This document shows positions 6,988-36,900 of a stretch of DNA of 50,845 nt, piece by piece. Both the position numbers and the translations under genes were made by a program. Where the stretch lies: the IMG/VR virus record IMGVR_UViG_3300047562_003060, positions 1 to 50,845 of that record; one strand, given 5' to 3'. The notes below the pieces were generated by a model. That model was given only the letters and a program-made list of their open reading frames with translations, made no database searches and was not told where the DNA came from. Origin of the DNA: a virus. Each line of letters opens with the position of its first letter. The stretch's first letter is position 1.

Positions 6988-7011
6988 AAGAGGGTTTATA
7001 TCCTCTTTTTT
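6988..7011 (+). terminator. Intrinsic terminator
   Basis: AAGAGG (6988-6993) pairs with CCTCTT (7002-7007) around an 8-base loop and runs into a T tract (7006-7011). It separates the small-gene region from the late operon starting at 7048. Confidence 0.85.
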
Positions 7012-7026
7012 CATAAATATAAATAT
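7012..7026 (+). promoter_or_regulatory. T4-type late promoter (two overlapping matches)
   Basis: CATAAATAT (7012-7020) and TATAAATAT (7018-7026) both match the late-promoter element TATAAATA used by T4-like phages. They lie 22-36 bases before the start at 7048, directly after a terminator. This places the whole 7048-12093 operon in the late expression class, together with the structural genes. Confidence 0.7.
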
Positions 7027-7047: not shown

Positions 7048-8223
7048 ATGTCATATAGATATCATCAACTCTTAAAATATGTGTATTTTGAAGGTTATGC
7101 AAACTCTTATGAAGAAGCAGAGTATATTTTAGAACAATTGAGTGATGAAGAATTTGATGTGTTATGTGAAAATGTCTTCAGAAGTAGAGATACTGGAGCG
7201 GTAAATGCAGATGCTGATGAAAGGGCAGCAGAGATGCATAAAACGGTTTCTGGTGCATCACATACTTCATCAGAAAATAGAAAGAGACATCGTGATGCTG
7301 CTGCTCAACACTTAGTATCTGCAAGAAGAAAAAGAAGAAAAGCAAAAACTAATGAAGAATATGTGTATGAGAATGTTTCTGGTGGTAGAGGAAGGAGAGC
7401 AAGTTCAAGAAGAGCACCAATATCACAAAGAGTAAGTGATTCTGAAGCAAGAGAAATTCGCAGAAATGCAAGAGAAAATCCAAAACCAACTGCTTCTGCG
7501 CCAGAAGATGATAGTTTGGAAGCAATGAAATTAAGATTTAGAGCAGAAACTGATGCTGAAAATGCAGAAAAAGAAGCAAAAAAAGCAAAAAAAGCAAAAA
7601 AACCAACTACTGTTCCATCCAGGGGTGTGGAGGGAGATGAACCTGTATTGAGAAGAAAAACACCAGAGGGACATGGAAAAAGAGGTGCATCTCCCGTGGC
7701 AGTAGCTAAAAGAAGAGCAAGACTTTTATCTACTGGACAAGATCCTACACAACGATATACTTATTCTAGAACACCTACTCCAGAAAGTAAAGCGAGAGCA
7801 AAAAAAATTCGTGCTGCACTGAAAAAAAGAGATAAATGGGGAACACCAGAAGCAGCAAAAGAAGAATATGTGATTGATTATCTTGTAACGGAAGGATACA
7901 CTGACAATTATGATTCTGCGATTGCAATTTATGAATCAATGTCGGAAGAATGGTTAGATACAATTCTTGAAGTAAAGGGTAGGGGAAGAGTTCTTATGAG
8001 AAGCACACGAGATGCTAGTGAGCGAGGTATGAAAATAACACCAGAAAGAAAACTTGATTTAAAATTAGCTCAATTAGAACGCCAATATCCAGGAGATGGT
8101 AGTTTGGGAGATCTTGAAAATATAGAGCAAAGAATACAAAAAATGAGAACAGTTAAGGATACCCCAAGTATGCGAAAGCGTGTTGATAATGTACGTAACA
8201 TAACCAAACGATATAAGAGATGA
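7048..8223 (+). CDS. Very basic, low-complexity protein with a duplicated helical motif
   Basis: 391 residues, first gene of the late operon. Residues ~9-43 (VYFEGYANSYEEAEYILEQL, SDEEFDVLCE) and ~276-311 (IDYLVTEGYTDNYDSAIAIY, ESMSEEWLDTILE) are two copies of one motif: a hydrophobic start, EGY, then an acidic helix-turn-helix. Between and after them the chain is highly charged, rich in Arg, Lys, Ala and Glu, with an AKKAKKAKK run, and likely disordered. Composition and late expression fit a DNA-associated internal virion protein, but this is inference. It overlaps the next gene (ATGA). Confidence 0.75.
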   Translation: MSYRYHQLLKYVYFEGYANSYEEAEYILEQLSDEEFDVLCENVFRSRDTGAVNADADERAAEMHKTVSGASHTSSENRKRHRDAAAQHLVSARRKRRKAKTNEEYVYENVSGGRGRRASSRRAPISQRVSDSEAREIRRNARENPKPTASAPEDDSLEAMKLRFRAETDAENAEKEAKKAKKAKKPTTVPSRGVEGDEPVLRRKTPEGHGKRGASPVAVAKRRARLLSTGQDPTQRYTYSRTPTPESKARAKKIRAALKKRDKWGTPEAAKEEYVIDYLVTEGYTDNYDSAIAIYESMSEEWLDTILEVKGRGRVLMRSTRDASERGMKITPERKLDLKLAQLERQYPGDGSLGDLENIEQRIQKMRTVKDTPSMRKRVDNVRNITKRYKR

Positions 8224-8942
8224 AGACATTTCAACAATTTCTACAATTAGCAGAACGCTATTATAAACCTGATGAGAAATTGCCATCAGGTAAAACTCCC
8301 TATGAGAAGGCATCAGCATCTTACGAAAAACAAGATAAAGAGTATTATTCTAAACCAGAAAGTGAAAGAACATTAAAACATGCAACAAGAATGAACAAAC
8401 AAATAGGAAGAGTTAGGAAAAATGTTGCTCATGGTGCAGATAATCCACATTTTAATACATATAGTGATTTGAGTGGTGAAGTGAATGTAACGGGTCATAA
8501 GGATGATCATATGACCGTCAGACACCCAGAGTCTGGAGTTCGTTTTAGCATTTACAATACTGGTAAAAAAACAAGAGATGGGAAACCAGTTCATGATGTA
8601 GAATGGCATCATAACCAAGACACTAAATCGTTGTCTGATAGTGAAAGAAAAAAAATTCTTCGTTCTGCAAGAGATACTTGGACAAAACATATTTCACACC
8701 GTTTACCTCATGGTAGTGTAATTCGAAATTTCCCAATATCTAATTTTGGCAGTGATAATTCAGATGAAAGATATGCAAGAGCGACACTTTACTCCAGAAT
8801 TGGTGGATTTGGCCCTCGTAATGATAGAACTGGTTATCAGTTCGCTGGAGTGGGTAGAGAACCCTCACCAAGACAAAAGGCAAAAGGTAAAAAGAGAACA
8901 TATCCAATGAATTCAAATACCGAAACAAGTTCTGCATTTTAA
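8220..8942 (+). CDS. Tagged paralogue 1: putative head-packaged internal protein
   Basis: 240 residues. It opens MKTFQQFLQLAE-RYY, close to the T4 capsid-targeting sequence MKTYQEFIAE, with LAE fitting the [IL]xE rule of the gp21 prohead protease. The body shares with the next three genes LPSG near 21, AHGADNP, a His-rich strand pair, VEWHH, then ARDTWTKHISHRLPHGS, YSRIGGFG, QFAGVGREPSPRQKAKGKKR. The protein is basic. Expected role: packaged in the capsid core, trimmed, injected with DNA. The biochemical function is unknown. This is the most divergent member in the GFG region. Confidence 0.8.
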   Translation: MKTFQQFLQLAERYYKPDEKLPSGKTPYEKASASYEKQDKEYYSKPESERTLKHATRMNKQIGRVRKNVAHGADNPHFNTYSDLSGEVNVTGHKDDHMTVRHPESGVRFSIYNTGKKTRDGKPVHDVEWHHNQDTKSLSDSERKKILRSARDTWTKHISHRLPHGSVIRNFPISNFGSDNSDERYARATLYSRIGGFGPRNDRTGYQFAGVGREPSPRQKAKGKKRTYPMNSNTETSSAF

Positions 8943-8950
8943 AGAAAATT

Positions 8951-9622
8951 ATGAAAACCTTTCAAGAATTTTTAGAACTATCAGAACGCTATTATGATCC
9001 TTTTGAAAAACTTCCCTCTGGTAAGACACCACTTCAAAAAGCATCCGAACGATCAGAAACTGAATACAAAAACACAAAATATGGGAAAGGAAGACAAATC
9101 AGACAAAGAATTCAAACAAAAAGAAAGGTACTTCATGGTGCCGATAATCCAACACCAAATCGTCATGATCATCCACAATTAGACGTAAGTGGCGGCAGAA
9201 ATTATATAGATATTCGTCATAAAGATACTGGAATTCGTTATAATTTAACCAAACACGGAGAAACAGATGATGGAAAACATGTTTATGATGTTCAGTGGGG
9301 ACATAATAGACATCCATCAAAAATGAGCGATGATGAAAGAAAACAAGTCGCCAGAGATGCAAAAGACATGTGGGATACGCACGTTCAACACAGACTACCT
9401 CATGGTGCCATTCTGAAAAATACACCAATCGGTAACCCAACTCCAGAAAATCCAAATAAGAATACTAGAGCAAAATTATATCAAAGAGCAGGATTTGGTG
9501 AAGTTGGTAAATTTGGAAGACAATTTGCCGAAGTTGGCAGAGAACCTTCACCAAGACAAAAAGCAAAAGGTAAGAAAAGATTAAAACCTCTCTCTGGTGA
9601 TACTGAATTCAACTACGATTAA
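8951..9622 (+). CDS. Tagged paralogue 2: putative head-packaged internal protein
   Basis: 223 residues, 8 bases after paralogue 1. The tag is MKTFQEFLELSE-RYY, and a protease site after LSE (or FLE) is plausible. Conserved blocks follow in the same order: EKLPSGKTP, LHGADNPTPN, a strand with IRHKDTGIRYNL, VQWGHNR, ARDAKDMWDTHVQHRLPHGA, LYQRAGFG, QFAEVGREPSPRQKAKGKKR. The invariant Trp, His, Arg and Pro in the WDxHVxHRLPHG block look like a binding or catalytic centre; no known family was recognised. Same late unit as its neighbours. Confidence 0.8.
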   Translation: MKTFQEFLELSERYYDPFEKLPSGKTPLQKASERSETEYKNTKYGKGRQIRQRIQTKRKVLHGADNPTPNRHDHPQLDVSGGRNYIDIRHKDTGIRYNLTKHGETDDGKHVYDVQWGHNRHPSKMSDDERKQVARDAKDMWDTHVQHRLPHGAILKNTPIGNPTPENPNKNTRAKLYQRAGFGEVGKFGRQFAEVGREPSPRQKAKGKKRLKPLSGDTEFNYD

Positions 9623-9630
9623 GAACTCAG

Positions 9631-10362
9631 ATGAAAACATTTCAACAATTTCTACAATTAGCAGAACGTTATTATGAACCTGATGAGAAATTACCATCGG
9701 GTGAAACTCCTGTTGGAAAAGCGACAAGAAAGAGTCGTACAAGAGCAAAGACCATTGGTTCTCAGTCACCACAGAATCAAGAACGTTGGGCAAGACAATA
9801 TGATTTGACTCAAACAAAAGTCAAACATGGTGCAGATAATCCAGAATTGAATAGCAGAGTGAGTCATAAAGACAAAGATGATGTGAAAGTTCAACATGAT
9901 GAACGTGGAATGTATCTGAAACACAAACCATCTGGTGTTTATTATTGGGTGTATAAATCAGATGAATCGCCAGATTCTCATACAATTGAGTGGGGTCATG
10001 ACAGAGGAAATAGTATTCAAAGAAAACAAAGAATTAAACTCGCCAGAGATGCAAAGTCAGTCTGGGATCAACATGTGTCTCATCGTCTACCTCATGGTGG
10101 TGTGGTTCACAATACTCCTGCATCATCATATGATTCCAGAGGAAGAGAAAAACCAGTCAATCGTAGGTCAGAAATTTATAAGAGAGCAGGATTTGGTAAA
10201 TTAGATGATGAGGGAGATCAATTTGCATCAGTAGGTAGAGAACCATCACCAAGACAAAAAGCAAAGGGTAAGAAGAGATTAAAGCCACTTAATCCTACAA
10301 TAACAAAAGCAAATTTAAATTGGGGTAAAGATGATGACGATTATAACGAATGGGAGGATTAA
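9631..10362 (+). CDS. Tagged paralogue 3: putative head-packaged internal protein
   Basis: 243 residues, 8 bases after paralogue 2. The N-terminal 15 residues are identical to paralogue 1. Shared blocks: EKLPSGETP, VKHGADNPELN, SGVYYWVY, IEWGHDR, ARDAKSVWDQHVSHRLPHGG, IYKRAGFG, QFASVGREPSPRQKAKGKKR. The segment after the tag (residues ~30-65) differs freely between copies in length and sequence, as does the extreme C-terminus, here acidic (DDDDYNEWED). This pattern of fixed core and variable surfaces suggests diversification against varied targets. Confidence 0.8.
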   Translation: MKTFQQFLQLAERYYEPDEKLPSGETPVGKATRKSRTRAKTIGSQSPQNQERWARQYDLTQTKVKHGADNPELNSRVSHKDKDDVKVQHDERGMYLKHKPSGVYYWVYKSDESPDSHTIEWGHDRGNSIQRKQRIKLARDAKSVWDQHVSHRLPHGGVVHNTPASSYDSRGREKPVNRRSEIYKRAGFGKLDDEGDQFASVGREPSPRQKAKGKKRLKPLNPTITKANLNWGKDDDDYNEWED

Positions 10363-10367
10363 TTAAA

Positions 10368-11036
10368 ATGAAAACTTTCTCAGAGTTTCTGGAATTAACA
10401 GAACGTTACTATAAACCTGATGAGAAATTACCATCAGGTGAAACACCACTTGGTAAAGCAGTTAAAAAACAAGAAAAAAGAGAATCTGAAATTGGTCCAA
10501 ATTCAAATATTCGTCGCATGAACAGACATTCTGAAAAAATCGAAACAAAGGTCAAACATGGTTCCGATAATCCAAATTATAATGCAAGAGTTAACAATAG
10601 AGATGATGATGAAATTCGTGTAGATTCAGATGGTACTGATTATCTTACCGTGCATCATAAACCATCTAAGGTAACTTATAATGTAGTAAAACAACCTGGT
10701 CCTGGAAATATTCATAGTATTGAATGGAGTCATGAAAGAGGACATAGAAAAACTCTTCTTCCAAGCGAAAGAAATGATATTTCAAGGGATGCAAGAAGGG
10801 TATGGGATCAACATGTATCTCATCGTTTACCTCATGGTGCAACACTGCACAATAAACCAGCAAGAGAAGGTCTTGGTAGAATTTATAAAAGAGCAGGTTT
10901 TGGTAATGTAGACTCTGATAATGATCAATTCGCAAGAGTTGGTAGAGAAAAATCACCAAAACAAAGAGCAAAAGGTAAGAAAAGTAGACTTACACCACTC
11001 GACCCAAAAGAAACAAAGAAAAAAGCAAATTGGTAA
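10368..11036 (+). CDS. Tagged paralogue 4: putative head-packaged internal protein
   Basis: 222 residues. The ATG at 10368 begins the tag MKTFSEFLELTE-RYY; an ATG at 10350 would put six residues before it and overlap paralogue 3, so it is rejected. Blocks: EKLPSGETP, VKHGSDNP, VTYNVV, IEWSHERGH, SRDARRVWDQHVSHRLPHGA, IYKRAGFG, QFARVGREKSPKQRAKGKK. The loop before IYKRAGFG is shorter than in the other copies. It has a Shine-Dalgarno-like GGGAGG 10 bases upstream. Confidence 0.8.
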   Translation: MKTFSEFLELTERYYKPDEKLPSGETPLGKAVKKQEKRESEIGPNSNIRRMNRHSEKIETKVKHGSDNPNYNARVNNRDDDEIRVDSDGTDYLTVHHKPSKVTYNVVKQPGPGNIHSIEWSHERGHRKTLLPSERNDISRDARRVWDQHVSHRLPHGATLHNKPAREGLGRIYKRAGFGNVDSDNDQFARVGREKSPKQRAKGKKSRLTPLDPKETKKKANW

Positions 11037-11041
11037 TAAAA

Positions 11042-11293
11042 ATGAAAACATTCTCAGAATTTCTGGAAATTATTCAGGAAAAGAAAAAGGAATCAAGTAA
11101 AAAACAAAAAGAGAAACTTGTGAAAGGTATTGTAGTTCGACCAAATGTAGAACGATCTGAAGATGGAACTCTTTCTTATAGTTTAAAAGATCTACCAAAA
11201 CCTCCTGAAACAGAACCAGGATCTCCAGAAAGAAGAGTTCAGACTAGAGAAATTGAATCTCATGGTGCAAAGGAGTTTAAAAAAAAGAAATGA
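11042..11293 (+). CDS. Short tagged protein, tag without the paralogue core
   Basis: 83 residues. It keeps the same N-terminal tag (MKTFSEFLEIIQE) but none of the HGADNP or RLPHG blocks. The rest is highly charged: Lys/Glu-rich at 12-30, a short strand, a Pro/Glu linker, and a Lys-rich tail. It may be a small internal protein of its own or a remnant of a paralogue after internal deletion. Its existence next to the full-length copies shows that the tag can be attached to unrelated sequence, which is what a targeting signal would do. It overlaps the next gene by four bases. Confidence 0.7.
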   Translation: MKTFSEFLEIIQEKKKESSKKQKEKLVKGIVVRPNVERSEDGTLSYSLKDLPKPPETEPGSPERRVQTREIESHGAKEFKKKK

Positions 11294-12093
11294 AAACATT
11301 TAAACAGTTTCTTGATGAAGCACTTGTTGCCTCACTTGTAAAAGCAGCGACAAGATCTCTACTCAGAAATAAAGCAATTACTCAAAAAGTTGCAAGCACA
11401 ATGCCTCCAAGAACACTTTCATTACCAAGAAAGATTACTGGATTTCAGACTGCAAGAGGGTCAAAGTATACATATCAACAAAAACCAAAATCTTGGCCTC
11501 AAACTCAAAGAACAGCGCCACAAGATCCATATCATCCCACATCAGCAGGAACTAAACAAAAGTCAGATTGGACTTTGTTTACGACTCCCAAAGATTCAAT
11601 GACGATGAGACAAAGATTTGTTTCAGGATCAAAAGAACCATTTCATCAAGGATTACCACAATCAACACGACCCAAAATAGGTAGAGCACCAGTCGAAGTG
11701 TGGAATCAGTATGTAGAAAAAGGTGGAAAATCAGTAATACATCCAGGTAGTCGAATCACTGATATTCAAACTGCAACACCAGGATCTGGAGTTGGATTAT
11801 ATGGAGCACAAAGAAAAGAACTTGCTGATAGAGTAAAAGTAGAACTTAAAAGACCAGCAAATATTGAAGCATTGAAAAAAGAATTGGAAATGAAATCCAA
11901 ATCACCATCAACTTATCGTAATCTTGGTGCAGGAAGAATTGAAAGTGTGAAGGAGAATAAAATAGTAAAAGACTATGAATCTGTTCGTCAAGAGGATGAT
12001 ATCTATCAAACTGTACAACAAAAACTTGCAAATCCAAGACTTCGAAAACTGAGAAGATATTTGAATCGTGAAGTTGGACGTTATACCGTATAG
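11290..12093 (+). CDS. Tagged basic protein, putative internal virion protein
   Basis: 267 residues, basic (many Lys, Arg and Gln). Its start MKTFKQFLDE-A is the best match in the window to T4 MKTYQEFIAE-A, with an LDE site at the same position as the T4 cleavage site. The rest is unlike the four paralogues: a hydrophobic-basic helix (VASLVKAATRSLLRN), a Pro/Gln/Thr-rich middle, and a helical C-terminal third. No enzymatic family is recognised. It is the last gene of the late operon and lies just upstream of endonuclease genes. Confidence 0.75.
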   Translation: MKTFKQFLDEALVASLVKAATRSLLRNKAITQKVASTMPPRTLSLPRKITGFQTARGSKYTYQQKPKSWPQTQRTAPQDPYHPTSAGTKQKSDWTLFTTPKDSMTMRQRFVSGSKEPFHQGLPQSTRPKIGRAPVEVWNQYVEKGGKSVIHPGSRITDIQTATPGSGVGLYGAQRKELADRVKVELKRPANIEALKKELEMKSKSPSTYRNLGAGRIESVKENKIVKDYESVRQEDDIYQTVQQKLANPRLRKLRRYLNREVGRYTV

Positions 12094-12143: not shown

Positions 12144-12719
12144 ATGAAGAAAGAACATTATTATCTTTACATGATTCAATTCAGTGATGGAAGATTCTAC
12201 ATTGGTTGTCATAAAAGCGATTGTGAACCAGAGAAAGACACTGCATACATGGGATCACCAGTCACATTCAAACACCTATGGGAAGATCCCAATCTTACGA
12301 AGACAAAGCATATTTTAAAGGAAGTCGATTCTCATTCTGAACTTCGTAGATTGGAACCTATTTTAATTCGAAAGGCATGGGAAAAGTTTGGTGATAGATG
12401 TGTTAATCGCAATGCTTCTCCAGCGTTTCATCCAGAATCTAGCAAAAAAGGAGGAATTGAGTGTTATAAGCGCAAAAAAGGAATTCATGGAATGACAAGA
12501 GAAGAACGCATTAGATGTGGATCATTAGGTGGTAAAAAGTCAGCAGAAATCATTAGAGAAAAGTATGGAAGAGAATGTACTCTTCTTTCACCAGAGGGTA
12601 AATTAGTTAAATTTAAAAACATTAGAGAGTTTTCTAAAATTAACAACTTAGATCAGTCAAATTTATCAAAGGTTATCAATCGTAAGAGAATGTCTCATAA
12701 AGGATATCGTTTACCATGA
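12144..12719 (+). CDS. GIY-YIG homing endonuclease-like protein
   Basis: 191 residues. The N-terminal nuclease domain shows YLYMIQFSDGRFYIG (a GIY-YIG variant, residues 7-21), an acidic Tyr/Gly segment (DTAYMGS), and Glu71 in RRLEPILIRKAW as the probable catalytic Glu. The C-terminal ~45 residues (SPEGKLVKFKNIREFSKINN, then LDQSNLSKVINRK, HKGYRL) form a NUMOD-type helix-turn-helix that gives sequence specificity in phage homing endonucleases such as the T4 Seg family. It is free-standing, not in an intron, and converges with the opposite-strand endonuclease at 12725. Confidence 0.85.
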   Translation: MKKEHYYLYMIQFSDGRFYIGCHKSDCEPEKDTAYMGSPVTFKHLWEDPNLTKTKHILKEVDSHSELRRLEPILIRKAWEKFGDRCVNRNASPAFHPESSKKGGIECYKRKKGIHGMTREERIRCGSLGGKKSAEIIREKYGRECTLLSPEGKLVKFKNIREFSKINNLDQSNLSKVINRKRMSHKGYRLP

Positions 12720-12724
12720 TTAAC

Positions 12725-13441
12725 TTATGTAAAAAACCACATGTGACCTTTCCATGTATAACGTCCATTACTTCTGAGTGCTTTTACAAGACAAGATTTA
12801 CCACGTCCATTGTTCACTTGACGTAGGGCATCATTTATACTTTCAAAGTGTACTTCATTCCATGTAATTCGATTCACTGCTTTAATCGATTTCTTCAGCG
12901 ATTTCTTTTCTAATAAGCGCCAACGATATCCATAACATACTGAACCTTTCTTGGCGCATTTTAATATGTTACTATTATAGTTTCGATTACCAGTTAATTC
13001 TTCTGCTGCATCTCTACTGTTATCCCATTCTCTTACTTCTCCAGTTTCTAAGTTTAGTCCTTGTATACGAATACTTGCATGTTTACCATCACTTCTATGT
13101 TCTGGTTTAAATGTGTGAGGAACTTTTACTTTCTCTTTTTTTATAATAACTTCTTCTTCCTTTTCTTTCACTACGAATGAATCGTCATTATATTCTGGAT
13201 TGTATTGTTCAATCCAATACTGATATCTTTCTTCTAGTAAGGATTGATTTGATTCATCTATTTCCTTTATCATAAAGTTGTGTGTTCCGTACTTACGAAA
13301 CGCTTTATGTAATGGTTCTGATGACATTCTCTTTGAACGTTCAATATGAGATTGCCATTCCTTATTCATTGACTGAGTTGTCTTTCCGACGTACTTGTGT
13401 CCTGTTTGTCTATTGATGATAAGGTAGATGATTCCTTGCAT
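12725..13441 (-). CDS. GIY-YIG homing endonuclease, opposite strand
   Basis: 238 residues, the only convincing minus-strand gene here. The nuclease domain has GIIYLIINRQTGHKYVGKT (GIY-YIG, 3-21), SHI at 31-33, a KAFRKYG helix, and Glu70/71 in LLEERYQYWIEQY as catalytic candidate. A charged linker (about 90-110) leads to two NUMOD-like DNA-binding repeats (one near NSRDAAEEL...GYRWR, one near ESINDALRQV...GHMWFF). Opposite orientation and domain layout point to a mobile homing gene inserted in the late region. Three 21-bp-spaced TACAATA elements lie just upstream of its start. Confidence 0.9.
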   Translation of the reverse strand: MQGIIYLIINRQTGHKYVGKTTQSMNKEWQSHIERSKRMSSEPLHKAFRKYGTHNFMIKEIDESNQSLLEERYQYWIEQYNPEYNDDSFVVKEKEEEVIIKKEKVKVPHTFKPEHRSDGKHASIRIQGLNLETGEVREWDNSRDAAEELTGNRNYNSNILKCAKKGSVCYGYRWRLLEKKSLKKSIKAVNRITWNEVHFESINDALRQVNNGRGKSCLVKALRSNGRYTWKGHMWFFT

Positions 13442-25582: not shown

Positions 25583-25993
25583 ATGGCAATCAATCCGGTT
25601 ACAAGGATATCAAGATCATTTAAAGATATTAGTTTATCTTTTGAACCTCATCCTGTGACAAAAGATTTGCCAATTTTAAAAAATGAAAGGGCGATTATAA
25701 GATCGGTTCGAAATATTGTAGAAACTATACCAACTGAAAGGTTTTTTAATTCAGATTTTGGTTCCTCAGTGAGATCTAATTTATTTGGTATTCTTGATTA
25801 TGCTACAGTTTCAATTATTGAGGACGAAATTAAAACTTCAATCAATAATTATGAACCAAGGGTTGAAAATATTAAGGTTATCATTAATCCGGAATTAGAT
25901 AATAATTCTTTAGAAATTTCAATTATTTTTGATATTATTGGACAGGATTTTCCAACACAAGAGTTTACTTTTATTTTAGAGGCAACGAGATAA
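25583..25993 (+). CDS. gp25: Baseplate wedge protein gp25 (lysozyme-like fold family)
   Basis: 136 residues. ISLSFEPHPVTKDLPILKNE, AIIRSVRNIVETIPTERFF and SDFGSSVRSNLFG are the conserved core of the GPW/gp25 family, followed by EDEIKTSINNYEPRVENIKV and a terminal strand. In T4, gp25 joins the wedge to the sheath and central hub; it is a universal contractile-tail component. Length is typical. It starts the structural operon behind a late promoter, and the next gene follows after one base, the usual cyanophage order gp25-gp6. Confidence 0.95.
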   Translation: MAINPVTRISRSFKDISLSFEPHPVTKDLPILKNERAIIRSVRNIVETIPTERFFNSDFGSSVRSNLFGILDYATVSIIEDEIKTSINNYEPRVENIKVIINPELDNNSLEISIIFDIIGQDFPTQEFTFILEATR

Positions 25994-25994
25994 A

Positions 25995-27902
25995 ATGCCT
26001 TTTACTAACTATACCAATCTAGACTTTGATCAAATAAAAACCTCAATTAAAGATTATTTGAGGGCTAATTCAACTTTCACCGACTTTGATTTTGAAGGAT
26101 CAAATTTTTCAGTTTTAATTGATACTTTAGCGTATAATACCTATATTAATGCATTTAATTCAAATTTAGCAGTAAACGAAGTATTTTTAGATTCGGCAAC
26201 GATTAGAGAAAACGTAGTATCTCTTGCTAAAAATATTGGTTACGTTCCAAGATCCCGTAAGTGTTCAACTGCAGTTGTCTCATTTGACATACAAACGACA
26301 AGCAATTCTTCAACACTTACTCTTCAACCAGAAATAGTTTGTGTAGGTTCAGTAGATAATAGTTCTTATATTTTTTCAGTACCAGAAGAAATCACTCGCA
26401 ATGTATCCGAAAGTGGTGTTGCAAGATTTGAAAATATCACCATTTATCAAGGTAGAGTTTTAACAGCAACATTTACTGTTGACAGTTCTTTAGATCAAAA
26501 ATTCATAATTCCTAATCCATATGTTGACACGAGTACAATTCGGGTTTATATAAAAGGAATAGGAGATTCTGGACTAGGTAAAAAATATACTTTAATTGAT
26601 AATATTATTACAGTCAACAAAGACTCTGAAACTTTCTTAATTCAAGAAGTTAAGGATGAAAAATACGAACTTTTGTTTGGTGATGATGTATTTGGTAAAA
26701 AACTTGTGAATGGATCAATTATTACGGTACACTATATTGTAACCGAAGGTAAAGATGGAAATGGATCCTCAGAGTTTAGTTTTGTTGGTTCAATTAAAAA
26801 TTCTAACGGAGTTGTAATTGCACCTTCAAACACTGTCACTGTTACAACTGTAGATTCATCAAAAAATGGTTCAAATATAGAATCAATTGATTCTATTAAA
26901 TATTTTGCACCTAGACTCTATTCATCTCAATATAGAGCTGTAACTTCCAATGATTATGAATCAATCATCAAAAATATCATTTACCCAAATGCTGAAGTTG
27001 TTAATGTAGTTGGTGGCGAAGAATTAGATCCTCCAGAATATGGATCTATTACAATATCAATTAAACCAAAAGAAGGATTATATCTTTCAGAATTTGAGAA
27101 GCAACTTGTATTATCAAAATTAAAACAATATTCAATTACAGGAATTAATCAAAAGATAATCGATATCAAAGTTCTCTACGTTGAATTGGATTCCTATACT
27201 TATTATAATAGTGCAACTTCTCCCGGACCAGAATCTTTAAAAACTAAAGTTACAAATTCACTATCGTCTTATTCAAATTCTTTGGATGTAAATAGATTTG
27301 GAGGAAGATTTAAGTATAGTAAATTACTACAGATTATTGATAATACTGATGTATCAATAACTTCTAATATTACTAAAATTATAATTCGAAGAAATTTAAA
27401 TGTATTATTAAATCAATTTACTGAATATGAACTATGTTATGGAAATAGATTTCATATTAACTTTGAGAGTGGTGGAAATATAAAATCTACAGGATTTAAA
27501 ATTGCAACAGAATCTGAATTTTTATATTTAACTGACGTACCAAATCCCGATAAACTGACCGGTACACTTGCAGTCATAAAATTATCTACTGTTCCAGGTC
27601 AAACTCCAAGAACAATAATCAAGTCTGCAGGAATTGTTGATTATGTGAGAGGTGAAATTAGATTAAATGCAATTAATATTGTTGAAACTGAAAAACCTAA
27701 TAGTGTAGTTGAGATTCAAGCGTATCCAGAATCAAATGATGTTGTTGCACTCAAAGATCTTTATTTAACTTTAGACATTTCAAAAAGTAAAATAAATATG
27801 ATTAAAGATGTAATATCTTCAGGTGAAAACACATCTGGCGTTTTATTTGCTAGAGATTACTATCAATCAAGTTACTCTAACGGAAGTTTAATTAGAGAAT
27901 AA
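25995..27902 (+). CDS. gp6: Baseplate wedge protein gp6
   Basis: 635 residues, the usual size. DQIKTSIKDYLRANSTFTDF, then DFEGSNFSVLIDTLAYNTYI, NLAVNEVFLDSATIRENVVSLAKNIGYVPRS (read in two parts) are the N-terminal hallmark of T4-like gp6. A central J-like region has KYFAPRLYSSQYRAVTSNDYES near residues 302-323, and the C-terminal part resembles a P2 J-type beta domain. gp6 dimers form the inner ring of the baseplate around the hub. It follows gp25 directly and its stop lies one base before the giant gene. Confidence 0.93.
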   Translation: MPFTNYTNLDFDQIKTSIKDYLRANSTFTDFDFEGSNFSVLIDTLAYNTYINAFNSNLAVNEVFLDSATIRENVVSLAKNIGYVPRSRKCSTAVVSFDIQTTSNSSTLTLQPEIVCVGSVDNSSYIFSVPEEITRNVSESGVARFENITIYQGRVLTATFTVDSSLDQKFIIPNPYVDTSTIRVYIKGIGDSGLGKKYTLIDNIITVNKDSETFLIQEVKDEKYELLFGDDVFGKKLVNGSIITVHYIVTEGKDGNGSSEFSFVGSIKNSNGVVIAPSNTVTVTTVDSSKNGSNIESIDSIKYFAPRLYSSQYRAVTSNDYESIIKNIIYPNAEVVNVVGGEELDPPEYGSITISIKPKEGLYLSEFEKQLVLSKLKQYSITGINQKIIDIKVLYVELDSYTYYNSATSPGPESLKTKVTNSLSSYSNSLDVNRFGGRFKYSKLLQIIDNTDVSITSNITKIIIRRNLNVLLNQFTEYELCYGNRFHINFESGGNIKSTGFKIATESEFLYLTDVPNPDKLTGTLAVIKLSTVPGQTPRTIIKSAGIVDYVRGEIRLNAINIVETEKPNSVVEIQAYPESNDVVALKDLYLTLDISKSKINMIKDVISSGENTSGVLFARDYYQSSYSNGSLIRE

Positions 27903-27903
27903 T

Positions 27904-30900
27904 ATGGTACAGTCAAATTTTGAATCCAAGGTAAAAATTCAAGACATTATTGATAATCAGATACCAGAATTTATTTTAGCAGAAAATCCAAAATTTTCTG
28001 AATTTTTGAAGCAGTATTATATTTCTCAAGAAAATCAAGGTGCAAATATAGATCTCATTGAAAATTTAGTAGAATATCTTAAGTTAGATAATTTAACGCC
28101 AGATGTAATATCCGGAAATTCATCTTTAACACAAAATGTATCGTCAAATGACACAACCATTTATGTTAACAATACTAATGGATTTCCAAATTATTATGGA
28201 TTAATTCAAATTGATGATGAAATTATTACATATAAAGAGAAATTAAATGATAGATTTGTTGGATGTATTCGTGGTTTTAGTGGAATTAAGTCTTATGAAT
28301 CGGAATTAGTTTTTAGTTCCACTCAGGCATCTACACATTCAACTGGAACTAAAATTGTCAATTTGAGTGTATTATTTTTACAAAAGTTTTATGAGAAGAT
28401 AAAGTTTACCTTTTTACCTGGACTAGAAAAAGTAGATCTTCATACATCTTTAAATGTAACCAATTTTATTAAAAATTCTTCAACATTTTACAGATCAAAA
28501 GGAAGCAAAGAATCATTCCGCATTTTATTTAATGCATTATATGGAATTGAACCAACTGTAGTAGATTTAGAAACTTTTCTTTTCAAATCATCAGGATCAA
28601 ATTATAAAAGAAGAAAGGAACTGATATTTGAAAATTTAAATTCAAATACAAATCCATTAGCACTTGTAGGACATCAAGTAACAAAAACTAATAATTCATC
28701 TGTTTTTGGTTCAGTATCTGAAGCAGAAATATTTACTCGCAATAATAAAACTTATTATAAGTTTTATATTTTTGTTGGATATGATGATTCCAATTCAGAA
28801 AGCAGTGGTGAATTTTCAATTACACCATCAACAAAAGTTGTAGAAAAAATATTATCTACAAGTAATGAAAATGTAATCACTGTAGATTCTACAATTGGGT
28901 TTCCAAAATCTGGTAGTGTATTTTATAATCAAATAGAAATTTTTTATACTGATAAGAGTGTAAACCAGTTTTTTGGGTGCTATACTCAAGGAAAAACTTA
29001 TGTAGATCTTAATATCGATAAAACTTCGGTTTTACATTCAAATGACACTTATTTTGGATATGAAAATGGAGACAAGACTAAAAAAGTAGTTCTTCGTCTT
29101 TTGGGAACAATTAATGGTATGGTGATTAATAATTTAAATAATTCGGAATATATTTTTACTGAAGGTGATAAAATTTATATTAAAGAATTAGGAAATTTAA
29201 TTACTCCCGGAATAGAAAATAATTCACAAATAATTTCTAATAGTTTAATTTATAATACTAGTTCCAGATATCAACTTAATAAAATTTTAAGTTCAAATTC
29301 ATCTCTTACACTTTCAGATTTAGATAAATCATCACTTAAAGTTGGAGATTATGTAGAATTTTTAGAAAGAAATACAGAAATTATAGCGAATATAAGAAAT
29401 GATGAAAATGAAATTATAAGAACATTCGATAATCAGAGAATTGAAGGCATTGCATTAAATCCAAATGAACCCGGATGGCAAATAGAATTTGATTTTGATT
29501 TACTTTTGTTAGATCCTTTAAAGGAATATGATATAAGAAGAAAATTAAAAACTGCATCTAGTTTACCCACTGCATCACCATTAAAGTATAATAATGTTAC
29601 TTGCGATATAACAAATCTATATTCTCAAAGTAATGAAACCTTTTATATTGCATCAAATTCACTACCATCTTATGCAATAGATAAAAATATATTTTCTTAT
29701 ACTGCATCATCAGTAGTAAATTTCAATAATATTGAACAAAAATATGAATCTATTGAATTTTCTAGTATAATATCTCTCATAAGTGGCGATAAAGTATTTT
29801 ATTCATACACAAATTCTCCAATACCCGGATTATCTGAAGGAGAATATTATATAAAGGTTTCGACAAATAAAAAACAAATAAAATTATATAGTTCAAAATC
29901 ATTTATAGCAATAGATAAGTTCTTATATTTGGGTTCAATCCCAGATAATAGTGCTCATACATTTACATTACTTCAACAAAAGACTGAGGATGGGAAAATT
30001 TATCCTCAAAAATTATTGAAAAAAATTAATCAAAATACATTTAATTCAGATGATACTCCAGAATCAATTGGAACAGAAACAATTGGAATTCTTGCAAATG
30101 GTGTTGAAATCTATAGTTACATATCAAATGATAAAGTTTTTTACGGTCCTTTAGAATCTGTAACGATTTTAAATTCTGGAGAACAGTATGATGTTATAAA
30201 TCCACCAAGATTACAATTTTCTTATGGAAATGCTAAATTGCAACCTATTGTTCAGGGTTATGTAGATAAAGTACATGTTGATCCTCAAGAATTTAATATT
30301 GATACTCCAATAGAAGTTAAAATAACAGGAGGAAATGGAAAAGGTGCTGTATTAGAACCAATAATAAGTTTAAAAAGTAGAGAAATATTTTTTGATGCTA
30401 GAGAGTTGTCTAACGGTGGTGGATTAAGTTTATCATCGGAAACAATTACATTTTTAACAAAACATAATTTAGTTGATGGGCAGAAAATAATTTATGATAT
30501 TGATAGTATTAGTAATCAAAAAATAGGATTAGGAACTTTTCAAGGATCTGATGATATTGTCAATTCTTACTTAGAGAATAATTCTGTTTTTTATGCAAAA
30601 GTTGTCAATGATCAAACTATTCAAATTTACCCATCATTTGATGACTATAGATCTGGAATAAACACTGTTGGGTTCACTACTGTTGGAAATCTAGGTATTC
30701 ATAAATTTAAGACTGAACCAAAGAGAATTTTAGAATCAGTTAAAGTTATAAATGGGGGTGAAGGATTTACAAACAGAAAATTAATTGTAAATCCATCAGG
30801 AATATCTACTTATAATCATACTGTCAATTTCATTAACCATGGATTTTCAAGTGGAGAATTAGTTTCATATGACTATGAAACATCTACCATTTCTGGAATA

Positions 30901-33900
30901 TCGTCTACTAATCAATATTATATTTTAAAAGTTAATAATGATTCTTTTAGAATTTGCAATGCTGGTGTAGCAGGTACTGATAATCAAAATTATATTAGAG
31001 AAAATTATGTTAAATTTTCTTCAGCGGGATCTGGATATCAATATTTTAGTTATCCAAAAATAACCACTGAAATTGTATATTCGTCAGAAAATTCAAACGA
31101 CATAAAAACTATTACAACCACTCCAGTGGTAAAAGGGTCTATAGTTGGAACTTATCTTTATGAAAAAGGTAATAATTATGGATCTAATGTATTAAATTTA
31201 GAGAATACTCCTGATATTAAAGTTCTAACCGGAGAATTTGCAAAACTTAATCCAGTTATTATTAATGGAAAAATAACAAAGATTTTAATTTCTTATTCTG
31301 GATTGAATTATTATTCTGTTCCAGAAATAGTTGTAGAAAGTAAGAGTGGAATTGGTGCTATACTAAGAGCGACAATATTGAATGGAAAAGTAAATTCAGT
31401 TATTGTTGTAAATAGTGGATATGGATACGATCCAAACGATACGATTATTAAAGTAGTATCTTCTGGTAAAAACGCAGTGTTTTTACCTAAAATAAGAGCA
31501 TTAACATTGAATAATTCCTACAAATATGGAATTCAAACCCAAAATTATCGTAATCCATCTTATGAATTTTTACGTAAGACAAAAAATAATAATTTACAAT
31601 ATGTAGTAACAGGTTATTCTGAATTATTAAAAAATTTATTTAATGAAAGTGACCAAAATCATTCCCCAATCATAGGTTGGTCTTATGATGGAATTCCTAT
31701 CTATGGTCCTTTTGGATATTCAAACCCAAGCAATCCTGGGGAAGGTATAAAGTTATTAAAATCAGGTTATTCAATAGCAACAATAGAAAATAGAGTATCT
31801 ACTGATGATTTTCCATTAGGATTTTTTATTGATGACTATAAATTTACTAATTCTGGAGATTTAGATGAATATAATGGTAGATTTTGTAAAACTCCAGAAT
31901 ATCCAAATGGAGCATATGTTTATTTTGCTACAGCAATTTTAAACCCAGAAAATGAGTATGTAGGATTTTTTCCATATTTTATAGGAAAAAATTATAGAAA
32001 TAAACCAATCATTGAAAATATTAAGTTATTACTAGATCAAACTTTTGATTTTAACCAATCAAATTTACTAAGAAACACACTACCTTACAAATCTGGTCAA
32101 AAATATGGAAGGAATGATTTTATTTCATATAATTTCGATCAACTATCGGAAGTAAGTAATACAGTTTCTGGCGAAATTGCGGATGTAAAAATTATAAATG
32201 GTGGGGATAATTATAAAGTTGGTGATATACTATACTTCAATAATGATGAAACTTCTGGATATGGATTAGATTGTATTGTAGAAAAAATAAAGGGTGAAAA
32301 AATTGATAAAATAGAGTCTGAGATAAAAATATATGAAAATGCAAAGCTATTAAAATATAGTGATAATAATTTTTATGTAAAATATCAACCTAATTATGAT
32401 ATTGTTAATAACTCTTTTGTTACTTTGTCCGGATTAACTTCATCCTTTTCACATTTAAATGGTGAGCACTTAGTAACTTTACCAGAATTTCAAACCAAAC
32501 TAAGTCTTCAAATACCAAATACTAATGCTGGTATTGTTACTGATATTTACCTCCAAAGTTTCCCAAGACAAGTTTCTATAGGAAGTTCAATTAAAATTAT
32601 CAATAGTAGTGGAGACAAATATTTTACAATACTAAATTATTTTGATGATATTGGTGCTTTAAGAGTAGAAAGAACAAATTCTGGATTGTGTACAGCAAAT
32701 TCTACAGTTGTATTTTTACCAGATATAATTATCAATGAAAATAATGAAATTTTAAGATCTTCTAATGAAAATTATTTAAGGTATTTTAATCCGGTAACTT
32801 CTGTTGGTGTTGGTACTTCATCAGGTACATTTACAACTAAAACAATATATAATGGACTCAAGCAACTTACAATTCCTTTACAAACACAATCAATTTACTT
32901 ACCAAATCATGGATTTTTTACTGGTCAAAAAATTATTTTTAGAAAATCAAAAACAAACGCAGGATCTATACTAGTTTCTAAAGAACCTGATAGTACTCCA
33001 TTCTCACTTTTAGCATCTGGTTCAAGTGAGGTAGTATATGCAATAAACAAGTCTAGAGACTATATTGGAATAAGCACTTTAGTTGCAGATTCTCAAAATA
33101 CAAATGGATTATATTTTAGATCTGATCCTAATCCTGGGATCATAGATGGTATAGATGATCATAAGTATAAGTATTCTTTTGAAAGTGTATATCCAGAAAT
33201 ATTATGCAATGTAACAAATGTAAGAAGTACAGTTTCAGTTTCAACTTCGCATAATCTGTCAAAAGATGACTTAATTAATTTGACAGTTAAACCTCAAAAA
33301 AGTGTTGGTATAGGTAGTACTTTATTCATAAATTTAGAATATATTGACTCTATCAAGTCAATAGGGATAAACAAACTAAAATTTACTCCAAGTGAGGTTA
33401 ATTTATCAGACAATAGATTAAACATATTAAATCATAATCTCAGTAGTGGTGACAAAGTTTTTTATATCTCAACTTCAGTAATTGGAGGATTAAGTACAGG
33501 TTCTTTCTATGTTTATAAAATTGATATTAACAATATCAGTTTGTGTGAATCTTATATTGATTCAATTTCAAATCCTGCAAAAACAATAACATTTACATCG
33601 GTTGGTATTGGTACCCAAGAGTTAACTCTAATTCAACCAAGAATAAATGTTGTAAGAAACAATGATTTAGTTTTTAACGTATCTGATTCTTCTTTGGAGG
33701 ATTATAATTTTAAATTGTATTTTGATAAGAATTTGAAGAAAGAGTTTGTATCTGCACCATCATCTAGTTCGTTTTCCATAGTTGGAGTTAATACTATAGG
33801 TGTTAGTTCAGATGCTTCCATAACTTTAAAATATTCAGATTCTTTACCAGATAAACTTTATTATAGTTTAGAAAAAAATAATGAATTGGTATCTGTAAAA

Positions 33901-36900
33901 GATGACATTAAAAACAGTTCAGAAATTTATTTTACTAATAGTGTTTACTCAGGAACTTATCAAGTATTTAACTTAAGTAATACTTCATTTGATATTAGAT
34001 TAAAAACTATACCTGAAGAATCGTTATATAATTATTCGGATTGTAAAATTTTAGAATATTCTACAAACTCAACTTCTACTTCTGGAACAGTCGATAAAAT
34101 TAAAATCATAAATTCAGGTTCAAATTACAAAAATATACCATATCTTACAAAAACTAATTCCGTAAATGGAGTAGGTTTAGATGTGATTCCAGTTTCAACT
34201 AACGTTGGAAAACTTGATAGTATTCGTATAAAAAATAGTGGTTTTGATTATTCTATAGATAAGACTTTATCTCCAAAACCAAGTACAACAAATATTATAA
34301 AAATATCTTTTTCTAACACACTTTTAAATGTAATTGTTAATGATGGTGGAAAAGGATACGCATCTGCTCCAAATTTAGTTATCGTAGACTCTGTGACAGG
34401 TGAAAAAATAAACAAAGGTCTTCTTGTTGCAAAAATGAGTGGTTCCAGTAGCACTGGAAACAAAAACATAGCATCAGTATCTATAGAATCTCCGATTAAT
34501 GGATTGCCATCTAATCCAGTTACAATAAAGTCAGTTAATAATTCAAATGGAATTATTATTGACAGGGTTGAATCGTCAAGATCTGGAATATTAACATGTT
34601 TGATAAGAACTCCAGTTTTAGGATTTTCAGTAGATCCTTTTTCTGCAGGTGATGAAGTATTTTTAGAAAACATTGAAATAGTTCCCAATAGTGGCAGAGG
34701 ATTCAATTCTGAAAATCATGGATATCAATTTTTTAAAATAATTGAATATACCCAAGAATCTAACCCCGGAAGAATGGTTATTAAAATACCTCAATTATAT
34801 GGAGATCCTGGGGAAGCAGTTTTATTTCAAGTTAATACATTTGCTACAGTAATCAAGAAAACAAAATATCCATCTTTTTCTGTAAAACAAGATTATAGTT
34901 CATTTTTACCTAATGAAGATATTATTTTAATTTCTGGAGAAGATAATATATTGACAGGTTTAACAGTTGGAAAATCTAATAAAAGTTATTTAAAACTATT
35001 AGGAGACTATGAATTACAAGTTGGTGACATAATAAAAGGATCTGTAACTGGTTATTCAGCTACAGTAGAAAAAGTAAATTCTTTTGATGGAACATTTATA
35101 ATTGGATCAGAAAATGTAAATTCTTTAGGTTGGGAAAATGAAGTTGGAAGATTAAGTAACGATGTACAATTTTTACCTGATAATGATTATTATCAAAATT
35201 TATCATATACATTAAAAACTAACAAAACTTGGAATGAAGTATCTTCTATTGTCAATTCTTTAGTTCATCCAATAGGAACAAAAAATTTCATTGACACTCA
35301 AATTGCATCATCATCAACTGGTATTGGGTCTACATCATCTTTAAGTTCAAAAGTAGATATTACTCAATCATTCATATCAGAATTTAGAGTTGATACTATA
35401 AAAGATTTAGATGTTGTTACGGATTTTGATGTAAATTTAAATGCTTCAAAAATAATTAAATTTAAAAATATAAAGTTACAAGATTATTTTGAAGCAAAAA
35501 CTAACAGAGTTTTACAAATAGATGATATTAGTGGATTATTTTCTAGTACTGATGATAATGAAAAAAGATTGGATGGAATCATATTGTCTATGCCTAAAGA
35601 TCAATCTTTTGGAAGATTTTTATTCCAGGTAAAATCATCAAACAAAAATTTAATTAAAGATAACGTAAATGAAATACAATTTACAGAAATAATTTGTCTA
35701 AAAGATTCTAGACAAGTATCATTTATTGAAAAAAGTACTTTGACAAATGGTCATGACAATGGTGAAGAACCAGTTTTCTTTGATTCTAAGATAGCAGAAA
35801 TAAAACCAGTTTATGATGATTCTAAAAATTATTATTTTACATTTTTACCAAAAGATCCATATAATATAGATTACGAAATTAAAATATTAAGTACATCATT
35901 TTTAACAAATAGTGAGTCAAATTCATCATTAGATTTTGATTCAACTACTGTGTTTAGCACGGTAGATTTAGTTCTTCCTCAAGAGTTTAAAAATATTCTA
36001 TCACTCGATTCTTCAAAATATTCATCTTTCTGTTCGCAAATACAAATTTTGAATAGAAAGACTTTTGAAATGAATTATGTTGAAATTTATGCCTCTTATG
36101 ATGGTGATAATATTTATTATGCCAATTATTATTTTGATTCTAAAGGTAATGGAAATCTTTCTCCTTCAGGAGAAAGTTATGGATTTATAGGATCTTTTGG
36201 ATTTAGTATTACTAATTCCGGATTACTTAAATTAGATTATTTAAATGAAACTAATCTCGATAATATAACAGTTAGTGCAAAAACAATTTGCTTTAATAAT
36301 AACTCCTCCGTAGGAATTGATAGTACTTATAGATTCAAAACAAAGAATCAAAACGATGAATCTGAAAGAACTGCAATAATCAGTTCGGGAACCACATCAG
36401 TTTCCACTTCTTCAACAATTTTCTCTTATAATAGTCAATTATTTTCAAGTATAAAATCTGTAGTTAAGGTAAGTATTGGAAACACTACATGCATATCACA
36501 ACTCATGGTAATACATGATAATTTAAATTCATTTATTACAGAGTATCCTGTTCTTTTTTCTGGTGATAATAATATTTATGAGATTGCCACTCCTTATTCA
36601 TTGATTGGTATAGGAACTTTTAGTTCATCATTTACTCAGGACAAGTTTTCAGTAATATTTAAACCACATAGTAATTTTGAAAATGAAAATATTTCAATAA
36701 GATATTATAATGAAATATTCTATAGTTTCTTGGATGAGATAAACTTACCACAAAATCTTTCTATTAATCCATTATTAGAGAAAGTTAATGTTGCAAAACA
36801 TTTTGGAATAAATTCTAAAGATAAAAACAGATTAAATTTTAATCTGAGATATAAAGAAACTCCAATATTTGCAAAAACATTTGATCCTGGAGATTCTGAT

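Follow-up and report, generated by a model that had tools for sequence, protein, structure and literature searches.

Six tandem genes with T4 internal-protein-like leaders in a T4-like phage: a candidate set of head-packaged, injected proteins

Organization of the operon

The DNA analysed here (IMG/VR virus record IMGVR_UViG_3300047562_003060, positions 1 to 50,845; the window is this whole stretch of 50,845 bases) is from a T4-like phage and carries, at 8220-12093, six tandem open reading frames (ORFs) on the + strand, each starting with MKTF[QSK][QE]FL followed by an [IL]xE site. We refer to this start, which resembles the leader of the T4 internal proteins IPI, IPII and IPIII, as the leader or tag. 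The ORF listing confirms the six consecutive genes with MKTFxxFL and [IL]xE reported in a first-pass annotation of this DNA, and the start type MKTFxxFL is restricted to these six among the window ORFs of at least 60 amino acids (aa). The tagged genes are separated by gaps of 5-8 nucleotides (nt) or joined by ATGA overlaps, and identical versions of all six proteins are encoded on a second contig (15,450 bases). The baseplate region of the window has DNA similarity (72-78%) only to the Synechococcus phages S-SRM01 and S-SKS1, which makes a cyanobacterial host likely. The features of the operon are the following (pI, isoelectric point; gene coordinates include the stop codon):

6988-7007: terminator-like hairpin, directly upstream of the promoter-like motifs
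7013-7025, + strand: pair of overlapping motifs resembling T4-type late promoters (CATAAATA, TATAAATA), at the operon head
7048-8223, + strand: opening gene of the operon, untagged (not counted among genes 1-6), 391 aa, basic (pI 9.7)
8220-8942, + strand: tagged paralogue 1, 240 aa, leader MKTFQQFLQLAE, putative GNAT-like core
8220-8255, + strand: leader of paralogue 1, resembling a capsid-targeting sequence, with cleavage predicted after LAE
8951-9622, + strand: tagged paralogue 2, 223 aa, leader MKTFQEFLELSE
8951-8986, + strand: leader of paralogue 2, site LSE
9631-10362, + strand: tagged paralogue 3, 243 aa, leader MKTFQQFLQLAE, structure model md1119f54f03b
9631-9666, + strand: leader of paralogue 3, site LAE
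10368-11036, + strand: tagged paralogue 4, 222 aa, leader MKTFSEFLELTE
10368-10403, + strand: leader of paralogue 4, site LTE
11042-11293, + strand: tagged basic protein of 83 aa, leader MKTFSEFLEIIQE, with a body not related to those of the paralogues
11042-11080, + strand: leader of the 83-aa protein, site IQE
11290-12093, + strand: 267-aa tagged basic protein, leader MKTFKQFLDE, third body type (relatives L021, L024)
11290-11319, + strand: leader of the 267-aa protein, with cleavage predicted after LDE

The leader is thus found on three types of body, as the first-pass annotation had proposed: the four paralogues (genes 1-4, with 44-54% identity to gene 3), the 83-aa protein and the 267-aa protein. 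The paralogy of genes 1-4 holds, but the core described as fixed varies in several of its motifs: gene 4 has HGSDNP instead of HGADNP and ends with VGREKSPKQRAKGKKS, while gene 1 has W..HISHRLPHG and GGFG instead of WxxHVxHRLPHG and AGFG.

The stretch CATAAATATAAATA at 7012-7025 contains both ATAAATA copies, 23-29 nt 5' of the gene at 7048, a position compatible with late transcription of the operon. In the window, ATAAATA lies 19-37 nt before seven genes and tops all 20 other 7-mers made of the same letters, and no excess was found for the alternative late motif CTTAAATA.

Comparison with the T4 leader

The sequence MKTYQEFIAE|A opens both IPII and IPIII in the T4 record, while IPI starts with MKTFKEFTSTTTPVSTITEA, i.e. 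MKTFKEF... with an ITE|A site, and has the leader MKTFKEFTSTTTPVSTITE. The earlier assignment of MKTYQEFIAE to IPI, IPII, IPIII and Alt is therefore correct for IPII and IPIII only; in IPI just MKT and F7 agree, and the Alt propeptide has only 7 residues (PMC9026906), so that it cannot carry this 10-mer. Over the first seven residues, IPI is the best T4 match of the window leaders. Aromatic residues occupy positions 4 and 7 (MKT[FY]xxF) in all six window proteins, as in T4 IPI-III, and the sites that close the leaders of genes 1-6 are, by sequence, LAE, LSE, LAE, LTE, IQE and LDE; the previously listed sites (LAE, LSE, LTE and LDE) hold for five genes, the 83-aa protein having IQE. Residues 4 and 7 of the T4 leader govern targeting, residues 8 and 10 govern processing, and the T4 head protease cleaves after L/I-x-E (PMC9026906). 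These four functional positions are the ones conserved in the window leaders. The six leaders vary at synonymous sites, which indicates that it is the protein rather than the DNA that is conserved. Comparison of T4 IPI, IPII and IPIII with the window bodies by BLASTP gave best alignments that span the first 7-21 residues only (E ≥ 0.02).

Retention of the leader among homologues of the core

An earlier homologue search used the tag or tag-adjacent patterns and was thus unable to reveal tag loss, so homologues were also searched by the core only (patterns VxHGADNP and QFAxVGR), blind to the tag. This retrieved 47 loci with 42 distinct cores, of which 3 are cut by contig ends and 39 are complete. 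The tag pattern is matched directly by 33 of the 39, and the other six have, upon inspection, a leader with an altered residue or start (MRIF, MVTY, MITF, VKTF) or a leader at an internal fusion junction. None of the 39 complete homologues from this tag-blind search lacks the leader or a variant of it; the first-pass annotation had named core homologues lacking the tag as evidence that would count against its proposal. Although the leader length up to the site varies between 10 and 17 residues, [ILV]xE stands immediately before [RK]YY in all complete homologues; the one divergent member (L017) is without RYY and has FLEE instead.

Fusion ORFs combine two cores, an ADP-ribosyltransferase-like domain with a core, or a P-loop kinase with a core. 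Their junctions retain F..F or a remnant of it together with [ILV]xE (VFEEFIELAE|RYY, KRLSEFLEIVE|KYY, AKTFEEFIAIAE|KYY). The head protease could cut such fused polyproteins apart at these internal sites, although recent fusion by itself could also leave these remnants.

Tagged proteins in cyanophage virions

The motif M..[FYW]..[FYW][ILVM].E was fixed from T4 and applied to four cyanophages with virion proteomics, the S-CREM2 leaders having already been seen before the motif was tested. In S-CREM2 the motif occurs in 3 of 219 coding sequences, the S-adenosylmethionine (SAM) hydrolase, the APH-like kinase and the cytidylyltransferase, and all three are virion proteins (PMC10665884, Table 3); they are exactly the three virion proteins that its authors class as 'regulatory'. 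An earlier scan of S-CREM2 with residue 3 fixed more narrowly gave no matches. With a motif looser than the one fixed from T4, five of six matches are proteins detected in virions (P = 0.003). The sole match in S-SM1 is SSM1_190 (T4-GC190), with the start MKKFSAFLNEA, and T4-GC190 was newly detected in S-SM1 virions (PMC3037559). In S-SCSM1 the NMNAT with MKSFLQFLKEA is a virion protein. The detected cytidylyltransferase of S-SZBM1 has a shortened start, MRFRQFIIEA, and was excluded from the motif count. Pooling the four phages, with the coding-sequence totals approximated as 235 for S-SM1 and 282 for S-SCSM1, five of eight motif proteins are in virions, versus 1.48 expected (stratified exact P = 0.0068). 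In a further phage, S-CRM01, a run of neighbouring genes with motif-like starts surrounds its kinase, which the literature reports in virions.

Two further sets of proteins were noticed. One is a small tagged family of about 105 aa with VNISGDFNG after the leader, present in several cyanophages (SSZBM1_191 of S-SZBM1, SSCSM1_30 of S-SCSM1, L034:429-755) and undetected in two virion proteomes. The other comprises a Cas9-like S-CREM2 virion protein (OR473000 7704-10313) and relatives, S-H34 L159:5282-8010 and S-CRM01 gene 128 (L156:8422-8973), in which a leader-like stretch (LRFASFMAEA, AGFSSFLKEA, LSLDSFIKEA) lies about 16 residues past the annotated start.

Breadth, basicity and bodies of the tagged proteins

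A DNA pattern for MKTF[QKE][QE]FxxEA found at least 120 stretches in IMG/VR. The matches listed, together with the homologue loci, hold 173 tagged ORFs in about 57 single-linkage clusters, an approximate number, as tags and fusions chain clusters together under single linkage, which may also leave short proteins apart. Among these matches, E occupies position 10 in 20 of the 25 tagged representatives in which the search did not force it, versus 6% of untagged proteins, and [ILVM]xE falls within residues 8-20 in 23 of the 25 unforced representatives, versus 18% of untagged ones. The 57 representatives among them have a median mature pI of 9.8, compared with 5.8 for 917 untagged ORFs of the same contigs (P = 2e-17). 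The six window proteins have mature pI values of 9.6-10.4 (the median of the other window ORFs is 5.1), and the T4 internal proteins 8.9-9.5.

The Pfam domains found behind the tag include GNAT acetyltransferase, DPBB lytic transglycosylase (RlpA-like), glucosaminidase, AAA_33 P-loop and Methyltransf_23, and the tagged bodies of S-CREM2 add a SAM lyase and a cytidylyltransferase. Family A6 comprises ten tagged proteins, some of which adjoin or are fused with the window core family in relatives. Its model (predicted local distance difference test, pLDDT, 80) has Tpt1/KptA as all of its top 18 PDB matches, followed by diphtheria toxin, and Pfam gives weak support (ART-PolyVal, PARP); by this predicted structure, A6 has the ADP-ribosyltransferase superfamily fold.

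Predicted fold of the paralogues

The AlphaFold2 model of the paralogue core (pLDDT 84) has leading PDB matches that are nearly all GNATs, with the toxin acetyltransferase AtaT first (E 1.7e-3). Its top match among viral models is a 276-aa S-SRM01 protein, taken to be the one at 82315-83145 with the start MKTFQEFQES. The predicted succession of strands and helices, together with the stretch 'R..IYKRxGFG', resembles the C-terminal half of GNATs such as AtaT, AAC(6') and Naa80. In contrast to these enzymes, the aligned members are without the acetyl-CoA loop Q/RxxGxG/A where the last strand of the core leads into the long helix, a loop that most of the separate tagged GNATs do have. A GNAT-like fold is therefore about as plausible as its opposite, and we use 'GNAT-like, perhaps not catalytic' as a working guess with the same reserve. 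A search of INPHARED phages with genes 3 and 6 gave no usable match.

Interpretation and alternatives

The leader is very probably a capsid-targeting signal. This reading, already made in the first-pass annotation, is well supported by the likeness to T4, the virion proteomics of relatives, the conserved [ILV]xE before [RK]YY, the portability of the tag and the basic pI. We propose that late in infection the operon would be transcribed from the ATAAATA promoter. The leader, chiefly through the aromatic F4 and F7, would dock each protein onto the prohead scaffold core, and a gp21-type protease would cleave after [IL]xE, i.e. at E12/R13 in the paralogues, E13/K14 in the 83-aa protein and E10/A11 in the 267-aa protein. 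The freed basic proteins would remain with the DNA and, by analogy with T4, enter the next cell alongside it. There they would act before phage gene expression and most likely serve counter-defence or host take-over. The four paralogues, with a putative, divergent GNAT-like fold that has lost the usual acetyl-CoA loop, probably diverged toward variants of one host target, like T4 IPI, IPII and IPIII, which are injected and each inhibit different GmrSD enzymes (PMC12373910). We consider this full account, in which the six are head-internal proteins that are packaged and injected, to be probable, while any given host target is doubtful.

The system would thus work like that of the T4 internal proteins, with which it shares an MKT[FY]xEF leader, a closing [LI]xE, unrelated bodies, several genes per phage and basic mature proteins. 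It differs in that the window bodies are not homologous to IPI-III beyond the leader, six genes stand in a row, four of them paralogous, and the relatives include proteins identifiable as enzymes as well as multi-domain fusions that contain internal [ILV]xE sites; the host is moreover probably a cyanobacterium, whereas GmrSD-type targets are known for the T4 side only. T4 Alt is likewise a head-carried enzyme processed by gp21 (PMC9026906), and tagged ADP-ribosyltransferase-fold proteins occur beside or fused with the core family in window relatives; Alt is set apart by the length of its propeptide, not by sequence comparison. The virion enzymes of cultured cyanophages (SAM hydrolase and APH-like kinase of S-CREM2, cytidylyltransferase/NMNAT of S-SM1, S-SCSM1 and S-SZBM1, kinase of S-CRM01) have other bodies than the window proteins but the same kind of leader: MKDFDSFLEE, VKRFDAFLTEE, MKNFSSFLTEA, MISFDQFLSEK and the three S-SM1, S-SCSM1 and S-SZBM1 starts given above. 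In the texts consulted, their authors do not recognise these leaders as a targeting signal. The ejection proteins of SPN3US and phiKZ are also packaged in the head, processed by a protease and ejected, as would be the case here, but those of SPN3US mostly have propeptides of more than 100 residues and AxE sites (PMC5694885), compared with the 10-17-residue MKTF leader and [IL]xE.

An effector role of the six proteins is suggested, and strengthened, by the enzyme bodies that carry the same tag (ADP-ribosyltransferase, GNAT, methyltransferase and P-loop kinase), by the presence of a SAM lyase and a kinase in the virions of S-CREM2 and by the predicted GNAT-like fold. The six could also be packaged and cleaved head proteins whose function is confined to assembling the head or condensing DNA inside the capsid, with no part in host take-over. 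T4 IPIII influences head morphogenesis (PMC9026906), six small, very basic proteins suit a DNA-binding filler, and the 83-aa protein is without a recognisable fold; we nevertheless consider this unlikely, because the enzymes just named are not assembly enzymes and because the repertoire differs between phages, unlike an assembly part. A location in the virion tail or baseplate rather than in the head interior would fit the position of the operon upstream of the gp25 and gp6 homologues (25583-27902) and the tagging of wall-active domains (RlpA, glucosaminidase). It is highly improbable, since the motif is absent from the starts of all annotated tail and baseplate proteins in the S-CREM2 and S-SZBM1 genomes, the T4 proteins with this leader are located in the head, and proteins this basic are suited to being packed with DNA.

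MKTFxxFL could instead be a helix at the N-terminus that was inherited and then propagated by duplication and recombination at gene starts, with no targeting role. The DNA of genes 1 and 3 is near-identical across the first 70 nt, which indicates that some tag copies were spread by recent duplication, and internal leader copies are kept in the fused proteins. Still, many unrelated clusters are tagged, with synonymous differences, F4, F7, [ILV]8 and E10 are retained, and the tag ends at [ILV]xE whatever the leader length, marks virion-detected proteins and predicts a basic pI, all of which make such a helix quite improbable.

Several points weigh against the interpretation of the six as targeted, injected effectors. 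The virion evidence comes from the proteomes of four relatives and not from that of the window phage itself, and gp21, gp22 and gp23 fall outside the 50,845-base fragment. The pooled test rests on eight proteins, three of which are one orthologous enzyme, and abundant enzymes may carry over through caesium chloride purification, a caution that comes from proteome authors themselves. A 106-aa motif protein of S-SCSM1 was undetected in virions, as were both strictly tagged proteins of S-SZBM1 (105 and 165 aa); all three undetected motif proteins are small. The GNAT matches of the paralogue core have TM-scores of only 0.2-0.4, with a best E of 1.7e-3, the six proteins have no Pfam or PHROG match and the core profile no PDB match, and a profile comparison of the core with the tagged true GNATs reached a probability of only 1.8%, so that there is no sequence-level proof of the relation. 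Finally, the late promoter claimed for the operon corresponds to two ATAAATA copies, and the motif precedes 33 of 171 tagged genes versus 0.9% of random positions, but on the same contigs it is found before 31 of 153 tagged (20%) and 160 of 897 untagged (18%) genes, all among the matches listed. It therefore does not set the tagged genes apart, and the late promoter as their special mark is excluded.

More broadly, we lean slightly towards the view that in T4-like cyanophages and related environmental phages one portable leader may be a general loading code, by which dozens of unrelated host-acting proteins (ADP-ribosyltransferases, acetyltransferase-like proteins, a methyltransferase, kinase-like proteins and cell-wall enzymes) would be loaded into the head, some as polyproteins cut at internal [ILV]xE, and delivered with the DNA. 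Cyanobacterial phages are abundant, and such a code would help to tell which of their proteins accompany the DNA into the cell, as it would make the injected repertoire of most phages of the kinds named readable from sequence. It would also explain simply the puzzling virion enzymes of cyanophages (SAM lyase, kinases, NMNAT-like). For many 'hypothetical' genes it would supply a location that can be tested and a probable function within minutes of the start of infection. No description of such leaders in cyanophages was found in the literature, in a search that excluded subscription papers and preprints, so the novelty of a cyanophage arsenal is provisional.

Neighbouring genes and further observations

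The untagged protein at 7048-8223 has repeats like DYLxxEGYxxxxxxAxxIxxxMSxEW, one form of which is also present in a tagged L061 protein, and this very basic product may itself be an internal protein. A common C-terminal stretch links the 267-aa protein to a tagged GNAT that is otherwise unrelated (L013:8684-9202), EDDIYxT...RLxKLRRxxNRExGRYTV, which suggests a second portable module at the opposite protein end. Directly 3' of the tagged operon, at 12144-13441, there are two GIY-YIG-like endonuclease ORFs (identified by eye) on opposite strands, and ORFs of a similar kind flank tagged genes in L007-L009. These endonucleases may drive gene traffic near the operon; as an explanation of the tag, homing-endonuclease neighbours could account for such traffic only.

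Between 14000 and 22500 the G+C content is 43-53%, compared with 25-39% elsewhere in the window, and two tRNA genes lie inside this region. A second contig (L005) spans its first boundary, which argues against misassembly at that point. At 27904-40383, beyond the baseplate genes, a single ORF encodes 4,159 aa, in a position matching that of the giant virion protein beside gp6 in S-SM1.

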